NCBI GenBank assembly: GCA_028288965.1
Contig: JAQGHD010000024.1
Location: forward strand, 1 to 39,352
Reading direction: 5' to 3'
Source: Candidatus Saccharimonadota bacterium
GTDB taxonomy: Bacteria; Patescibacteriota; Saccharimonadia; Saccharimonadales; JAQGHD01
DNA: 39,352 nucleotides
Shown here: piece after piece, positions 4,816 through 38,743 of the stretch
Layout: every line of letters starts with the position of its first letter
Numbering within the stretch: position 1 is the stretch's first letter
Notes under the pieces: model-generated
Databases searched by the model: none
What the model was told of the DNA's origin: nothing
Seen by the model: only the letters and a program-made list of their open reading frames with translations
Translations under genes and position numbers: made by a program

Positions 4816-5684
4816 TCTCGTTTAAAGTCAAAGATAAAGATGTGGGCAAGCGGCTTGATATATTTGTCATAGAAAATATTCCTGAGCTAACCCGTGGCTA
4901 CGTAAAATCGCTTATTGATAGAAGCGAGATTCTGTTAAATGACCAACCCGCTAAAGCCGGTGAAAGGTTAAAAGCCGGCAATAATGTAAGCATTTTATAC
5001 GATTTAGCTCGGATTCATGAGATACCAGCTATTGAACTGCCCATTATATACGAAGACGATGACTGCCTAGTCATTAATAAGCCCGTGGGTGTCCTGACTC
5101 ATAGCAAGGGCAGCTTTAACCCTGAAGCCACTGTGGCCACATTCATTAAAGATAAGGTGACAGGCATGGCAGGCGACCGCGCCGGTATTGTTCATCGGCT
5201 GGATCGAGCCACGTCTGGTGTCATTATTGGTGCCAAGTCGCCGGAAGCGCTCGCTTGGCTGCAGAAACAATTCTCCACACGCAAGGTGCATAAAACGTAT
5301 CAAGCCATAGTGGCCGGACACATTGATCCGCCAGAAGCTATTATTGATATGCCGATTGAGCGCAATCCCAAAAAGCCACAATCCTTTAGAGTTGGTGCCG
5401 GCGGTAGACCGGCCACCACACACTACAAAACACTCACCCAAACCACTGGTTTTAGTTTGGTTGAGCTAAAACCCACCACCGGGCGGACCCATCAGCTGCG
5501 TGTTCACCTCAGTCAAATCGGCCACCCGATTGTTGGCGACAGTGTCTATGATGGCCAGCCAGCCGATCGGCTCTATTTACACGCCCTGAGCTTAGAGCTA
5601 ACACTCCCTAACCGCGAACGAAAAACATTTTCCGCACCGTTGCCAACGCAATTCAAGGAGTTTTTAAAAAGCCATGATTTATAA
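4812..5684 (+). CDS. RluA-family pseudouridine synthase (RluD-like)
   Basis: Converts specific uridines in rRNA or tRNA to pseudouridine. An N-terminal S4-like RNA-binding domain (residues ~1-65: VGKRLDIFVIENIPELTRGY) is followed by the catalytic domain. Motif II reads GIVHRLDRATSGVIIGAK with the catalytic Asp in HRLDRATSG. VVELKPTTGRTHQLRVHLS (here LVELKPTTGR...) and GHPIVGDSVYDG complete the family pattern. 290 residues. The domain order S4 plus RluA suits RluD or RluB/C homologues, but the substrate cannot be read from the sequence. It overlaps trpS by 4 bases (ATGA) and the delta' gene by 11 bases, so the three are one operon. Confidence 0.92.
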   Translation: MISFKVKDKDVGKRLDIFVIENIPELTRGYVKSLIDRSEILLNDQPAKAGERLKAGNNVSILYDLARIHEIPAIELPIIYEDDDCLVINKPVGVLTHSKGSFNPEATVATFIKDKVTGMAGDRAGIVHRLDRATSGVIIGAKSPEALAWLQKQFSTRKVHKTYQAIVAGHIDPPEAIIDMPIERNPKKPQSFRVGAGGRPATTHYKTLTQTTGFSLVELKPTTGRTHQLRVHLSQIGHPIVGDSVYDGQPADRLYLHALSLELTLPNRERKTFSAPLPTQFKEFLKSHDL

Positions 5685-6537
5685 CGACCTCACGGCCCAG
5701 CAAGTGAAGGCATTTCTTGCTCAGCCCGCTCACGCCTTAATTGTCAATGCTCCGGTGGGGTTTGGAAAGCGCAGCTTGATGCACCAGCTAGCCGCCAGCT
5801 TGCTGGACATCGAACCTGGCGGCGTAGTGCAGCATCCGGCGATAACCATCATTCAGCCAGTAAAAAATTCCATAGGTATTGAAGTAATCCGCGATCTTCG
5901 GTCTTTTAGCAAACTACGCTCCGCTAATCAAAAAGAGGGTATCCACAGAATCATTCTTATTGAAGATGCCCAAGGACTAACCCGTGAGGCTCAAAATGCT
6001 TTTTTGAAGTTATTAGAAGAGCCGCCCGCCGACTTAGTAATTATTATGACCGTCTCTTCACTTGGTCTATTACTGCCGACTATTATTTCTAGGGCTCAGC
6101 TAATTCATCTTAAGCCGGTTCCTAAATCTCAAGTTTTAGGCTACTTTAGCGAACAAGGATTTGCCGTCAAAGACACTGAGCGGGCCTATCATCTCAGCGA
6201 TGGGCGCTTGGGTCTCATGCACGCCATTTTGCAGGAAAGTAACGATCATCCGCTGCTCACCCAGGTTCAGCTTGCCAAAGAAGTCCTCACGGCACCAGCA
6301 TTTGAACGGCTACAGAAGATTGACGAGCTCAGCAAAGATAAAGCCAATCTGAGTAGCTTTTTGCAAGGGTTACACCGGGTGGTGCAGGCCGCCCTAGCTG
6401 GCGCCATAGACAAAAACGATGCCAGGAACATCGAGCGTTGGAAGTTACGCTTACAACAAGTGCATAAAGCACTCGATGGACTTGTTGTTAATGCCAATAC
6501 CAAACTCCTGCTGACCGATTTGCTACTCAATTTGTGA
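5674..6537 (+). CDS. holB: DNA polymerase III delta'-like clamp-loader subunit
   Basis: AAA+ protein related to clamp-loader subunits. The P-loop is degenerate (NAPVGFGKRSLM), as in delta' proteins that do not hydrolyse ATP. The Walker B region is RIILIEDAQGLTREAQNAFL, followed by LLEEPPADLVIIMTVSS and a sensor/arginine-finger segment IISRAQ (SRC in many homologues). I see no zinc-binding cysteine cluster. 287 residues, slightly shorter than E. coli delta'. It stops with TGA directly before the promoter of the TPR gene. The partner DnaX is encoded at 24322. Assignment to delta' rather than another AAA+ subunit is by similarity of pattern. Confidence 0.85.
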   Translation: MIYNDLTAQQVKAFLAQPAHALIVNAPVGFGKRSLMHQLAASLLDIEPGGVVQHPAITIIQPVKNSIGIEVIRDLRSFSKLRSANQKEGIHRIILIEDAQGLTREAQNAFLKLLEEPPADLVIIMTVSSLGLLLPTIISRAQLIHLKPVPKSQVLGYFSEQGFAVKDTERAYHLSDGRLGLMHAILQESNDHPLLTQVQLAKEVLTAPAFERLQKIDELSKDKANLSSFLQGLHRVVQAALAGAIDKNDARNIERWKLRLQQVHKALDGLVVNANTKLLLTDLLLNL

Positions 6538-7262: not shown

Positions 7263-7595
7263 TCAATGATTACCAGGTGCTGGTGTGTTTTGCTTAGATC
7301 GTTTATCCAGCACCCACTTTACTGATGGGCTGATCGACTTGTCTGTACGGTGGGTGCAGCCTATCCAGCAACAAGGTCGTCGCATTCCTTCCTTGAGTTC
7401 AGAAATAACTCGTTTAACATGTTCGTCCCTTGTCTTTTGTTGTTTCACTGTCACCGTCCAGCAAATCCACTCATTACGTGCTAGTGGCGTTAAGCTCTGC
7501 CATGCTACTCGTGCCACTGGGGCAGTAGTAAGTGCTTTTCTTAAGTCGGCAGGCATTTTATGAACCGTTCCGCCGGCTATTTCTGCTTTGGCCAT
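7263..7595 (-). CDS. YdeI/OmpD-associated (OmdA-like) family protein
   Basis: The stretch MPADLRKALTTAPVARVAWQ, then LTPLARNEWICWTVTVKQQK and TRDEHVKRVISELKEGMRRP, matches the pattern of the YdeI/OmpD-associated domain. That domain is a helical module named after E. coli YdeI and usually called 'bacteriocin-protection'; its molecular role is unclear. The C-terminal half is rarer: CCWIGCTHRTDKSISPSVKW carries a CCxxxC cluster that could bind a metal. 110 residues, no signal peptide. A TAGAAT box ends 6 bases before the ATG (7607-7602), again a leaderless layout. The family call is from memory of the motif. Confidence 0.7.
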   Translation of the reverse strand: MAKAEIAGGTVHKMPADLRKALTTAPVARVAWQSLTPLARNEWICWTVTVKQQKTRDEHVKRVISELKEGMRRPCCWIGCTHRTDKSISPSVKWVLDKRSKQNTPAPGNH

Positions 7596-7658
7596 AAGCT
7601 TATTCTACCTTGTTTTGTTCCAGTCGTCCCGATTGCTTCATCTGGTGCAGCTTATGCT

Positions 7659-7681
7659 ACGAAGTAGGAACGCTACTTCGT
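7659..7681. repeat. Perfect hairpin between two minus-strand genes
   Basis: ACGAAGTAG (7659-7667), loop GAACG, CTACTTCGT (7673-7681): nine perfect base pairs. It lies just past the stop of the 7692-8021 gene and before the -10 box of the next gene. There is no T tract on either strand, so it may protect or process a transcript end rather than terminate. An operator is also possible. Confidence 0.5.
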
Positions 7682-7691
7682 CAAGTATAAA

Positions 7692-8021
7692 CTAAATATT
7701 CTGTAGGTCTAAGACTTTCGCAGCAGCAAAAGCTCCTCGCATATACGCTGCTTCTGGGCATCTTTGTGCTGGGTCTACTAACTTGAATCGTTCGAGATGG
7801 TCCAAGCCGAAGACATGCTTTTCAATGAAATCATGGCTGTAACCACAGCTGCTAAGCTCGGGATGTGCCTCCATCCACTCACCATCGCTGCATGTAAATA
7901 TACCGATGCTATCACGTGCTATTTTGTAGTCTGTGGTTTCATTAAAGTAAACCTCATCAAACATAGCATCAAAGCCTGTCATCCATGGATGTGCTAATGC
8001 CTCAAGATTTGGTTCACTCAT
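7692..8021 (-). CDS. Hypothetical protein, 109 aa
   Basis: No family recognised. The product is acidic and aromatic-rich (HPWMTGFDAMFDEVYFNETT), with no signal peptide or membrane segment. Two cysteines and several histidines are scattered without a zinc-finger spacing. I choose the ATG at 8021 because an excellent promoter places its -10 box 6 bases before it. The longer frame from 8036 starts with TTG inside that promoter. Monocistronic by context: tRNA-Tyr lies just upstream on the same strand and a hairpin lies downstream. Confidence 0.65.
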   Translation of the reverse strand: MSEPNLEALAHPWMTGFDAMFDEVYFNETTDYKIARDSIGIFTCSDGEWMEAHPELSSCGYSHDFIEKHVFGLDHLERFKLVDPAQRCPEAAYMRGAFAAAKVLDLQNI

Positions 8022-8060: not shown

Positions 8061-8146
8061 TGGTGCAGGGTGTAGGATTCGAACCTACGAAGGCGTAAGC
8101 CAACAGATTTACAGTCTGCCGTGTTTGACCGCTTCACTAACCCTGC
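8061..8146 (-). tRNA. tRNA-Tyr (GUA)
   Basis: 86 nt, class II with a long variable arm. The acceptor GCAGGGT pairs with ACCCTGC, followed by discriminator A and encoded CCA. The T arm is GTAGG-TTCGAAT-CCTAC. The anticodon loop, within CAGACTGTAAATCTG, gives GUA for tyrosine. Confidence 0.95.
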
Positions 8147-37002: not shown

Positions 37003-37077
37003 TGGGGAGTGGCCAAGCGGTAAGGCACCAGTTTTTGGTACTGGCATTCGGGGGTTCGAATCCCTCCTCCCCAGCCA
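37003..37077 (+). tRNA. tRNA-Gln (UUG)
   Basis: 75 nt. Acceptor TGGGGAG pairs with CTCCCCA, discriminator G, encoded CCA. The anticodon stem CCAGT/ACTGG encloses TTTTGGT, giving UUG. The last 21 bases are copied downstream at 37574-37594 with two changes, and more loosely at two or three further sites. Confidence 0.96.
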
Positions 37078-37079
37078 AG
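37057..37079 (+). repeat. Repeat R1: 3' end of tRNA-Gln
   Basis: CGAATCCCTCCTCCCCAGCC plus AAG. Its last 16 bases (CTCCTCCCCAGCCAAG, 37064-37079) recur exactly at 37581-37596, 517 bases away. Reference copy of the array. Confidence 0.8.
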
Positions 37080-37081
37080 CA

Positions 37082-37111
37082 TTGACATTTATATTAATTT
37101 ATATTTATATA
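37082..37111 (+). promoter_or_regulatory. Promoter of the 95-aa gene, leaderless
   Basis: TTGACA (37082-37087), 18 bases, TATATA (37106-37111), then 6 bases to ATG 37118. It starts 5 bases after the tRNA end. Confidence 0.6.
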
Positions 37112-37117
37112 CATTAT

Positions 37118-37405
37118 ATGGCTGAAGCGTGTAAAGATTTTTGCCCTAGAATTCAAGCTTTAGAAAACTTAGCCGGTACTTATAGGCCTGAAACTGCTTT
37201 CGGATATCATGCTGGTTCAGCACAAATGCAGCTAGCATGGGAAGAGCGGCGACTCGCTGCATGTAGTGCGGCTGATATGTGCGAAGGCCCGGTTGAAATA
37301 ACTACTGAGGAGGTTATAGTCCGTGGTTCTATAAAGCAACTATTTCGCAAAAGAACGGAAAATGTGGCTCAGTTTGAATGTGGGCTTAGTAGTGACACTG
37401 TATGA
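37118..37405 (+). CDS. Small hypothetical protein A of the tRNA-Gln array, 95 aa
   Basis: No family recognised. Cysteine-containing (MAEACKDFCPRIQALENLAG, then AACSAADMCEG) with two Cys pairs separated by ~40 residues, which might bind a metal or form disulphides. A basic stretch (GSIKQLFRKRTEN) lies near the C-terminus. The promoter is near-consensus and ends 6 bases before the ATG, good evidence that the gene is real. It is the only ORF between repeats R1 and R2; its stop is 26 bases before R2. Confidence 0.62.
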   Translation: MAEACKDFCPRIQALENLAGTYRPETAFGYHAGSAQMQLAWEERRLAACSAADMCEGPVEITTEEVIVRGSIKQLFRKRTENVAQFECGLSSDTV

Positions 37406-37431
37406 TTTAGACTCTCTAGCATATCGGAGAA

Positions 37432-37461
37432 TTCCTGAAACTCATCCATCATCCCCAGCCA
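37432..37461 (+). repeat. Repeat R2 of the array
   Basis: Ends ATCCATCATCCCCAGCCA, so it shares the tRNA-Gln 3' end pattern (ATCC.TC.TCCCCAGCCA, 16 of 18). It is closer to R4: AAACTCATCCA is identical in both, and both end CCCCAGCCA. Confidence 0.6.
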
Positions 37462-37594
37462 GGGTTATTTGAGAGGTTTTTAGACCTCTCGGATAACCCT
37501 GTTTTGATGACAGGATTCGAACGGGATGGCCCGATGGCCATCCCCGGCACTTTTGGCGCTTGAGCGACAAAAGCGAACCTCTCCTCCCCAGCCA
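37461..37594 (+). ncRNA. Structured unit ending in a tRNA-Gln-like 3' end (candidate RNA)
   Basis: No ORF. Hairpin 1: AGGGTTAT-TT-GAGAGGT ... ACCTCTC-GG-ATAACCCT (37461-37500), 15 pairs. Hairpin 2: GGGATGGCC/GGCCATCCC with loop CGAT (37523-37544). Hairpin 3: CTTTTG-CGCT/AGCG-CAAAAG (37550-37573). Then repeat R3. GAGAGGTT (37471-37478) can alternatively pair with AACCTCTC (37576-37583) inside R3. GGATTCGAAC (37513-37522) is the T-loop of tRNA-Gln in inverted orientation. No promoter found; it may be part of a longer transcript. Confidence 0.45.
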
Positions 37595-37596
37595 AG
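37574..37596 (+). repeat. Repeat R3: near-exact copy of the tRNA-Gln 3' end
   Basis: CGAACCTCTCCTCCCCAGCC followed by AAG: 21 of 23 bases equal to R1, including the encoded CCA and AG after it. The tRNA 5' part is absent, so this is not a functional tRNA. Confidence 0.78.
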
Positions 37597-37623
37597 ATTT
37601 GAAAAACGCGCTATTATAGAATT

Positions 37624-37788
37624 ATGGAATGCCCAGTCTGCAAACAAGCAATGAAGAAAGTCCGTTGGCATATTACTTATGATGCCAATGAAAAGGAATT
37701 CGACCATACCACGTATCACTGCAAAACTGACGATGTTTGGGCCACTACTGAAATCCCAAAAAGCGATTCAAGTGAGCAGAACGGCTAA
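37624..37788 (+). CDS. Small CxxC protein B of the tRNA-Gln array, 54 aa
   Basis: Short ORF below the usual size cut-off. It starts MECPVCKQAMKKVRWHITYD with a CxxC knuckle; a second metal site may be the His/Cys pair in HTTYHCKTDD, so a small zinc-binding or ribbon-like protein is possible. An acidic Ser-rich tail follows. TATTAT (37612-37617) ends 6 bases before the ATG, matching the leaderless layout. It lies between R3 and R4; the stop is 41 bases before R4. No family recognised. Confidence 0.55.
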   Translation: MECPVCKQAMKKVRWHITYDANEKEFDHTTYHCKTDDVWATTEIPKSDSSEQNG

Positions 37789-37829
37789 ATCTTTTTTGGT
37801 TTTTGCGTAGTCCGGATGATGCATCGCGG

Positions 37830-37857
37830 TTCTAAACTCATCCACTAACCCCAGCCA
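37830..37857 (+). repeat. Repeat R4 of the array
   Basis: TTCTAAACTCATCCACTAAC then CCCAGCCA. It shares AAACTCATCCA and CCCCAGCCA with R2, three mismatches apart over the central part. Its end is the same as that of the tRNA-Gln gene. Confidence 0.58.
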
Positions 37858-37886
37858 AAAAATGCATGTGTTAAAGTATAAGCAAT

Positions 37887-38684
37887 ATGGAAAATACCGG
37901 CCCTGTGCTTCCGCCGCAAACTCCTCAAGACATTCCGCCCGTACCCGGTGTAGTAGCTCAACCACCCGTATATGATGTGCAGCCGCCCAAGAAATCACGG
38001 CGAACAATTATAATTGTAGCTGTGGTGGTTATCCTGCTGGTAATAGGCGTTATGGCCGCTGTTATTATGCAGAAAAAGCCAGTCGCAAAAACAACTCCAG
38101 CAGACAACGCTTTGCTGGGATCCAAAATCAAAAGCGCCGGTGATGATTACGTGCAAAAAGATAAGTCTGGGGCGAACGATCAATATTACCGTAAAAACGC
38201 CGCGGAATACCAGGCAATTGCCAAGTCATTTACTTTTGATACGTACGACACGACTTACTCGACTACCGACATTAAGCTATCAAAAAGAGTCACCACGGCT
38301 ATTACAGGCGAAGCTAAAAATATGTTTATGGTCTATGCCACACTGGTTAATGGCGGCTTTAATCCTTATGCCAGTACGGAAGTTATAAAAATCCAGAGTT
38401 TTGATATACGCGATTTTCCAGGCTACACCAGCAATTGCGGGCCCATCTTGTTGATAATCGCCAATGCCCGTCAAGATAACAGCTTTCCCTGTAAGACCAC
38501 CTCCGAAAAGTTCCTGGGCACCGTGGTCTACAAAGGCATAGGCGCCGGGGCCGATCAGTATAGTGTGACCATCAATAACACTCGCATTACTATCACAGCC
38601 AGAAGCGAACAAGAAGCGCTGGCCGTGATGCGGTCCATGAAAAAAGTGCCGGCTACTCAGCTCGACTTTTTTATCAAGAACTAA
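37887..38684 (+). CDS. Membrane-anchored extracytoplasmic protein
   Basis: Residues 1-35 are a Pro-rich cytosolic tail (TGPVLPPQTPQDIPPVPGVV). One hydrophobic span follows (~40-62: TIIIVAVVVILLVIGVMAAV). The remaining ~200 residues face outward, with a Lys/Asp linker, a helical part and a beta-rich end (YSVTINNTRITITARSEQEA). Two Cys (NCGPI, FPCKTT) could form a disulphide. No enzyme motif; no family recognised. Proteins with this Pro-rich head plus span are common in Saccharibacteria. TATAAG (37877-37882) is 4 bases before the ATG. R4 precedes it and a poor fifth repeat follows its stop. Confidence 0.75.
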   Translation: MENTGPVLPPQTPQDIPPVPGVVAQPPVYDVQPPKKSRRTIIIVAVVVILLVIGVMAAVIMQKKPVAKTTPADNALLGSKIKSAGDDYVQKDKSGANDQYYRKNAAEYQAIAKSFTFDTYDTTYSTTDIKLSKRVTTAITGEAKNMFMVYATLVNGGFNPYASTEVIKIQSFDIRDFPGYTSNCGPILLIIANARQDNSFPCKTTSEKFLGTVVYKGIGAGADQYSVTINNTRITITARSEQEALAVMRSMKKVPATQLDFFIKN

Positions 38685-38729
38685 CAAACAAAAGACACCC
38701 GTTATAGGACGCTAGGCCATACCTACGGC

Positions 38730-38743
38730 TTCCATCCCAGCCA
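38730..38743 (+). repeat. Possible degenerate repeat R5
   Basis: TTCCATCCCAGCCA, 46 bases after the stop of the membrane-anchored gene. It agrees with the CCCAGCCA end of R1-R4 but is short, so chance is quite possible. The distance from the stop is like that at R2 and R4 (26-41 bases to the start of the repeat). Confidence 0.28.

Follow-up and report, generated by a model that had tools for sequence, protein, structure and literature searches.

A possible insertion hot spot at a tRNA-Gln gene and a family of small, folded, gene-free elements beside tRNA genes in Saccharibacteria

Introduction

The REPIN/RAYT and IS200/IS605 systems comprise gene-free hairpin elements that move in single-stranded form through enzymes supplied in trans, guide bases pairing with the cleavage site. 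Insertion at tRNA genes with restoration of the tRNA is long known in general, and ssrA provides a known case of arrays behind a single gene. The anticodon and T arms of tRNAs are known sites of tyrosine recombinases (PMC8371274), and the tRNA- and tmRNA-targeted integrative elements of tyrosine and serine recombinases use T-loop, anticodon-loop and 3'-end sites (PMC8371274). In Dehalococcoides, tandem islands are located behind one tmRNA gene, ssrA, where they are inserted at the T-loop and bordered by 20-bp 3'-end repeats (PMC3146451). These islands are of kilobase size, many of them contain an integration module including a serine recombinase, and a folded element has not been reported from them (PMC3146451).

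The window analysed here is the whole stretch of 39,352 bases that makes up one contig (C10) of a Saccharibacteria genome of 916 kb in 30 contigs. Its tRNA-Gln locus resembles the Dehalococcoides ssrA arrays in its tandem units behind one gene, its 3'-end repeats as borders and its apparent T-loop insertion (PMC3146451). With tRNA-targeted integrative elements it shares insertion at a tRNA loop, a restored tRNA, a 3'-end direct repeat and directional build-up downstream (PMC8371274); the 3'-end repeat stands at the far boundary together with an intact tRNA, and presence and absence were found at syntenic sites, whereas an integrase of its own is lacking. Unlike those integrative elements, the elements described here are gene-free, measure 130-190 bp and contain the target arm as an inverted copy, and 5'-restoring forms, which are rare in bacteria (PMC8371274), are common among them. 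The locus is read here, with moderate confidence, as a tRNA-gene hot spot of insertion, the central unit of which is a tiny gene-free mobile element that enters the T-loop and is probably mobilised in trans.

The tRNA-Gln locus

The features of the locus are listed in Table 1. A sequence-only reading of the window had described repeated tRNA 3' ends separating single small genes, and this description holds. The copy that closes the structured element agrees with the tRNA-Gln 3' end at 19 of 21 positions, the final 16 being identical, and the two looser copies behind the 95-aa and 54-aa ORFs are closest to each other (21/24; the runner-up site in the window reaches 17). A weak further repeat is borne out behind the third ORF, and the ORFs of 95, 54 and 265 aa and their stop-to-repeat gaps are as had been described. 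The sequence CCCCAGCCA occurs four times in the window, each time at the tRNA-Gln locus, where 0.35 occurrences were expected, and 22 times genome-wide with both strands counted. Chance as the source of the repeats was refuted, as none of 20,000 simulated downstream regions reached the observed three further copies. The layout of a tRNA followed by short units is not unique to the window; tRNA 3'-end copies are located downstream of tRNAs in many relatives.

Table 1. Features of the tRNA-Gln locus and of the tRNA-Tyr locus in the window
Feature	Positions	Strand	Remarks
tRNA-Gln(UUG)	37003..37077	+	intact anchor gene; ARAGORN; Rfam RF00005, 62.4 bits
95-aa ORF	37118..37405	+	first unit; no Pfam family
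Plain tail repeat AAACTCATCCATCATCCCCAGCCA	37438..37461	+	closes 95-aa unit
Terminator-like hairpin	37462..37499	+	perfect; directly 3' of the 95-aa unit tail; same placing after relatives' tRNAs
AGGATTCGAAC	37512..37522	+	10/11 match to tRNA-Gln T-arm 3' half, inverted; forms 5' strand of P1 stem
Structured element, short form	37512..37594	+	P1, P2 (37523-37544), CGGCA, P3 (37550-37573), P1' and tail
tRNA-Gln 3'-end copy	37574..37594	+	19/21; closes structured element
54-aa CxxC ORF	37624..37788	+	next unit; no Pfam family
Plain tail repeat AAACTCATCCACTAACCCCAGCCA	37834..37857	+	closes 54-aa unit
265-aa ORF	37887..38684	+	contains a membrane-spanning segment
Weak tail repeat CCCAGCCA	38736..38743	+	3' of 265-aa ORF
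tRNA-Tyr	8061..8146	-	anchor of second, weaker array
tRNA-Tyr unit	7643..8021	-	109-aa ORF (7692-8021), 9-bp hairpin, tail CTGCACCA (7643-7650)
110-aa OmdA ORF	7263..7595	-	bacteriocin protection; next after the tRNA-Tyr unit tail

The structured element and its distribution

When the genome was searched with the tRNA-Gln region, contig C25 unexpectedly proved to contain the same core beside a tRNA-Ser gene. The core of this paralogue, GGATTCGAACGGG-hairpin-CCCCGGCACTTT-hairpin-AAAGCGAA, continues into the tRNA-Ser end and not into the tRNA-Gln end. Two further true copies were identified in other genera by pattern search; the first such search gave seven matches, of which three (G051, G055 and G106) look like chance. 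The four starting copies align closely and share a three-way junction fold, with DNA fold z-scores of -3.9 for the copy in the window and -3.7 for the C25 paralogue, and the copy in the window scores 101 bits with the covariance model. Long forms carry one extra arm relative to the short form. The gene-free element, about 130-190 bp in size, is located on the tRNA's own strand, usually 42-58 nt past the last tRNA base, and the gap between them contains a terminator-like hairpin. At a few loci (L097 and L220) an identical terminator is present again 3' of the second tail, and the repeated block there therefore consists of the tRNA end plus the terminator.

The first covariance model, built from the four copies and run on 393 genomes of the same order, gave 53 places in 30 genomes. 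Copies were found with the long-form model in 8 of the 380 genomes of a phylum-wide sample, in which three carriers lie outside the order, one of them (G444) with seven copies. Further copies in Candidatus Saccharibacteria MAGs were detected by a scan of named records for the element core. The host tRNAs of the family represent ten amino acids. In one genome the tRNA-Lys and tRNA-Arg copies have 96% identical interiors and different tails, and in another the interiors of two tRNA-Ser copies and one tRNA-Val copy are 80-87% identical. Element-free tRNA loci, for which a search had been suggested, were found at tRNA-Gln in congeners: G123 carries the element and G160 does not, with clear synteny, and G147 carries it and G135 does not, the synteny of this pair resting on weak upstream similarity.

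Of 45 copies retrieved from the order, 6 lack a tRNA in the available sequence up to 1 kb upstream. Such elements are present at L102 (G182) and at L104 (G194), the latter with two diverged copies in tandem; they are possibly relics, or moved together with their own tail. At L152:1590-3257 (G444 contig 28), a tRNA-Ser is followed by a hairpin and element, a 278-aa ORF unit ending in TCCGCCA, and a second hairpin and element. The second hairpin-plus-element copy matches the first over most of its length, and this is the clearest array outside the order. On contig 8 of the same genome (L153), an element is located near a tmRNA called by ARAGORN, which raises the possibility of tmRNA genes as further hosts.

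Correspondence between the element and the adjacent tRNA

At its start the element carries the 3' half of the T-arm of its own tRNA in inverted form, and it ends, unless decayed, with a direct copy of that tRNA from C56 onward. Both relations were tested with 20,000 permutations in a set of 45 elements whose tRNA neighbours represent ten amino acids. The tail has a mean identity to its own tRNA of 16.5/21 (13.0 when permuted) and the inverted copy one of 9.9/11 (9.2 when permuted), and neither value was reached in any of the 20,000 permutations. Twenty-one of the 45 tails are identical over all 21 bases, and decayed tails are also present. In 8 of 9 discordant elements, the own 3' strand of which has drifted, the inverted segment resembles the tRNA more than that strand; this count is small, partly biased and inclusive of decayed copies. 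Because the inverted segment tracks the tRNA in these cases, the comparison of sequences hints at a guide role for it. An element beside tRNA-Arg (L106 in G010) has an inverted segment matching tRNA-Arg, whereas its adjoining 3' strand still reads like that of the tRNA-Lys copy and only the last bases are Arg-like; this mixed pattern is possibly the trace of a recent move.

Folding as DNA or as RNA

RNA under selection tolerates G-U pairs but not A-C mismatches. In 21 long forms, 93% of cells are paired and 60 two-sided changes were counted, with few one-sided changes in the stems; slid controls gave 34-53%. G-T accounts for 1.6% of the element stem pairs, as compared with 6.6% in tRNAs of the same loci (Fisher p=6e-6), the tRNA pairs having come from a program that accepts standard pairs only. 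In the element stems, G-T is no more frequent than A-C. Since the stems covary strongly yet nearly without G-U, folding as single-stranded DNA fits better than folding as RNA. The low G-U content could come partly from hairpin upkeep by templated repair. The credible matches of an Rfam search were tRNAs only, plus an RNase P nearby, and the element matched no known family. An earlier suggestion that the repeats mark or process mRNA ends is not favoured, since the stems lack the G-U signature of RNA and each tail follows the adjacent tRNA, as recombination would leave it.

Modules upstream of tRNA genes

A second folded family, type B, is multicopy in one genus. Some of its copies are located downstream of a tRNA; others follow a loop-broken tRNA 5' fragment and lie just upstream of the intact gene. 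Matches of at least 14 nt to the tRNA 5' part were found upstream of 15 of 125 tRNAs and downstream of none, and exact 9-mer copies of the tRNA 3' end on the same strand were found 14 times downstream and never upstream. Several of these 14 tails close further structured units, not ORFs. The breaks of the 5' fragments fall within D, anticodon or T loops. Of the modules inspected, about half contain an inverted copy of the broken loop 3' of the insert (e.g., GGACCAAAAC, GACCAGAACC, GGACTCGAACCT, ATTCGAACCCC and GGTGCTCTAGCCA). Because the 5' fragments and inverted loops mirror the 3'-tail arrangement, 3'-restoring and 5'-restoring forms seem, judged from sequence, to follow one logic.

Broken tRNA 5' copies upstream of intact tRNAs are present at L212, L219, L223, L228, L073, L075, L221 and L088, and in many of them the interrupted loop recurs inverted behind the break. 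Conservation across families is seen for the insert that interrupts the anticodon loop of tRNA-Gln (CTGTyyGAGC..GCGAGTAAA), and L213 (G135 contig 4) contains two tandem tRNA-Pro 5' halves with type-B inserts upstream of an intact tRNA-Pro(ggg). A self-splicing tRNA intron was considered and rejected: all broken copies observed adjoin an intact one and are without the remainder of the acceptor, and splicing is therefore not required of them.

ORF units and their cargo

The 95-, 54- and 265-aa ORF units are each closed by a plain tRNA tail of 8-12 bases. Comparable units of relatives encode an Imm5-like protein (L072), a cupin (L076), a HAD phosphatase (L091) and a Nudix protein (L099). A convincing relative of the 265-aa protein was absent from 393 genomes, the matches being weak (E of at least 3e-6) and mostly to the N-terminal half. 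In the second array of the window, at tRNA-Tyr, a tail copy at +1681 was set aside as probably due to chance; it lies inside an opposite-strand 287-aa ORF (5674-6537). In L072 (G123) the Imm5-like immunity protein is encoded between tRNA-Gln(ctg) and the element, and this unit, together with the OmdA ORF of the window, suggests protective cargo in the ORF units. Compared with shuffled sequences, the ORF-unit ends show no better folding, with a single exception at tRNA-Tyr. As these ends carry no fold, the ORF units are at most putative members of the same system as the structured element, linked to it by their shared location.

Recombinases and comparison with integrons

The absence of an integrase, as had been stated for the window, is true but says little, because the window is one of 30 contigs; a Xer-type recombinase (C4:7608-8441) and a second tyrosine recombinase (C15, around 89134-89907) are encoded elsewhere in the genome. 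A tyrosine recombinase was found in 48 of the 50 genomes searched, whether the element was present or not. Xer is a candidate mobilising recombinase by default, and it is not linked to the element, because its gene is also present in element-free genomes. A search for shared neighbour proteins gave only syntenic housekeeping genes and frames inside tRNAs or elements, and no element-borne integrase. In IS110 bridge-RNA elements a DEDD transposase adjoins the RNA; no protein family recurred in such a place in this search. Element copies were not found in viral contig, phage and plasmid collections, and pattern scans of viral contigs gave unrelated matches or none.

Reverse transcriptase (RVT_1) was not found in the window's own genome and was present in 7 of 36 genomes searched. 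An origin from a reverse transcriptase or group II intron was rejected, most carriers being without the enzyme. The Y1 transposase is likewise missing from the window's genome and was detected in 19 of 36 genomes searched; REPIN/RAYT and IS200/IS605 differ further in that their target is other than a tRNA loop and a tRNA tail is absent.

The model proposed below would resemble integron attC in its folded strand as recombination site, its inverted arms and branched variable part, and a length of about 70-140 nt, and the single-gene neighbours in one direction resemble integron cassettes. In contrast to integrons, the arms copy the host tRNA and change with it, the ORF units have no fold, most elements are gene-free, and the integrase IntI is absent. 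An IntI-type integrase (TIGR02249 over cut-off) was found in none of 30 genomes, and on this ground and that of the unfolded ORF units an integron was rejected.

Proposed mechanism and alternative explanations

The cargo of the element consists of a replacement tRNA 3' end with terminator, an inverted copy of the host T-arm and a covarying multi-branch fold. A double-stranded circle of 130-190 bp is implausible as an intermediate, so the mechanism would be single-stranded or different. The element may fold as single-stranded DNA, with the inverted copy paired to the tRNA-derived strand and the remainder bulging out. Folded in this way, it could work as a hairpin attachment site like integron attC, with the tRNA arm as partner site or box sequence. 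A recombinase acting in trans, with Xer, present in nearly all these genomes, as the candidate, would join the element to the tRNA at the loop. The intact tRNA would then combine its original 5' part with the 3' part brought in by the element, the original 3' part being left as the tail. The 95-, 54- and 265-aa ORF units may have been acquired through recombination at the terminal 8-12 bases of this tRNA end. A more far-reaching proposal is put forward tentatively, as somewhat improbable on present evidence: a new class of gene-free elements in which a complement of the target is the built-in guide. The inverted segment of the folded strand would recognise a tRNA loop, the strand would insert at that loop and repair the tRNA with a spare 5' or 3' half, and the guide would change on moving to another tRNA, forming in Saccharibacteria an integron-like capture system with tRNA genes as docking sites.

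The sequence-only reading had proposed an array of single-gene units added by repeated integration at one tRNA. Units closed by the tRNA 3' end, one orientation, varied cargo and element-free loci in congeners speak for that part of it; a uniform integron-like cassette array is not borne out, as the ORF-unit ends lack a folded site and an integron integrase is missing. In its full form, with a tyrosine recombinase adding the units one by one at the 3' end and the structured segment as one ORF-less unit among them, this explanation is unlikely. It would account for the single, same-strand, cassette-like genes in relatives' units (Imm5-like, cupin, HAD and Nudix), for tails that occur downstream only and for the second array at tRNA-Tyr, but the ORF units have in common just the 8-12 tail bases and no folded site, and no integron integrase accompanies them. 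Moreover, the structured unit recurs ORF-less in about 8% of genomes and is thus not a random empty cassette; it is rather a separate, widespread, gene-free element.

The structured segment could instead be the gene of a small non-coding RNA that arose by duplication of the tRNA 3' half with its terminator, its inverted T-arm being antisense to the adjacent tRNA. Its own terminator-like hairpins, multi-branch fold and conserved loops would suit such a gene, as would an inverted segment that, in 8 of the 9 discordant cases, is more like the tRNA than like its own strand. We nevertheless regard this origin as improbable: G-U pairs are nearly absent and A-C mismatches as many as G-T, the tRNA differs between genera, presence is patchy, broken 5' counterparts follow the same logic, and an acceptor 3' strand without a partner has no obvious RNA role. 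Inverted copies beside direct ones at hairpin loops typify template switching, and decayed tails exist, both of which agree with replication-error scars. On this account no mobile element is involved, and tRNA halves are duplicated and inverted copies made when replication switches template at tRNA hairpins. This is very improbable as a general account. For the structured element it is refuted by a homologous folded interior that recurs beside unrelated tRNAs and across genera, because errors would not supply a shared covarying interior; for single broken tRNA copies template switching is possible.

Significance

No description of a gene-free, folded, target-complementary element with 5'- and 3'-restoring versions was found in the open-access literature and Rfam, which does not prove absence, and the structured family is apparently undescribed before. 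The covariance models can now be used by others for searches. The folded, target-complementary site would be a natural test case for how tyrosine recombinases adopt single-stranded hairpins. If the preferred reading of a tRNA-gene insertion hot spot is true, the broken tRNA copies beside intact ones would be explained, and Saccharibacteria would own a gene-capture hot spot based on tRNA genes together with tiny gene-free integrative elements that bear a copy of their target.
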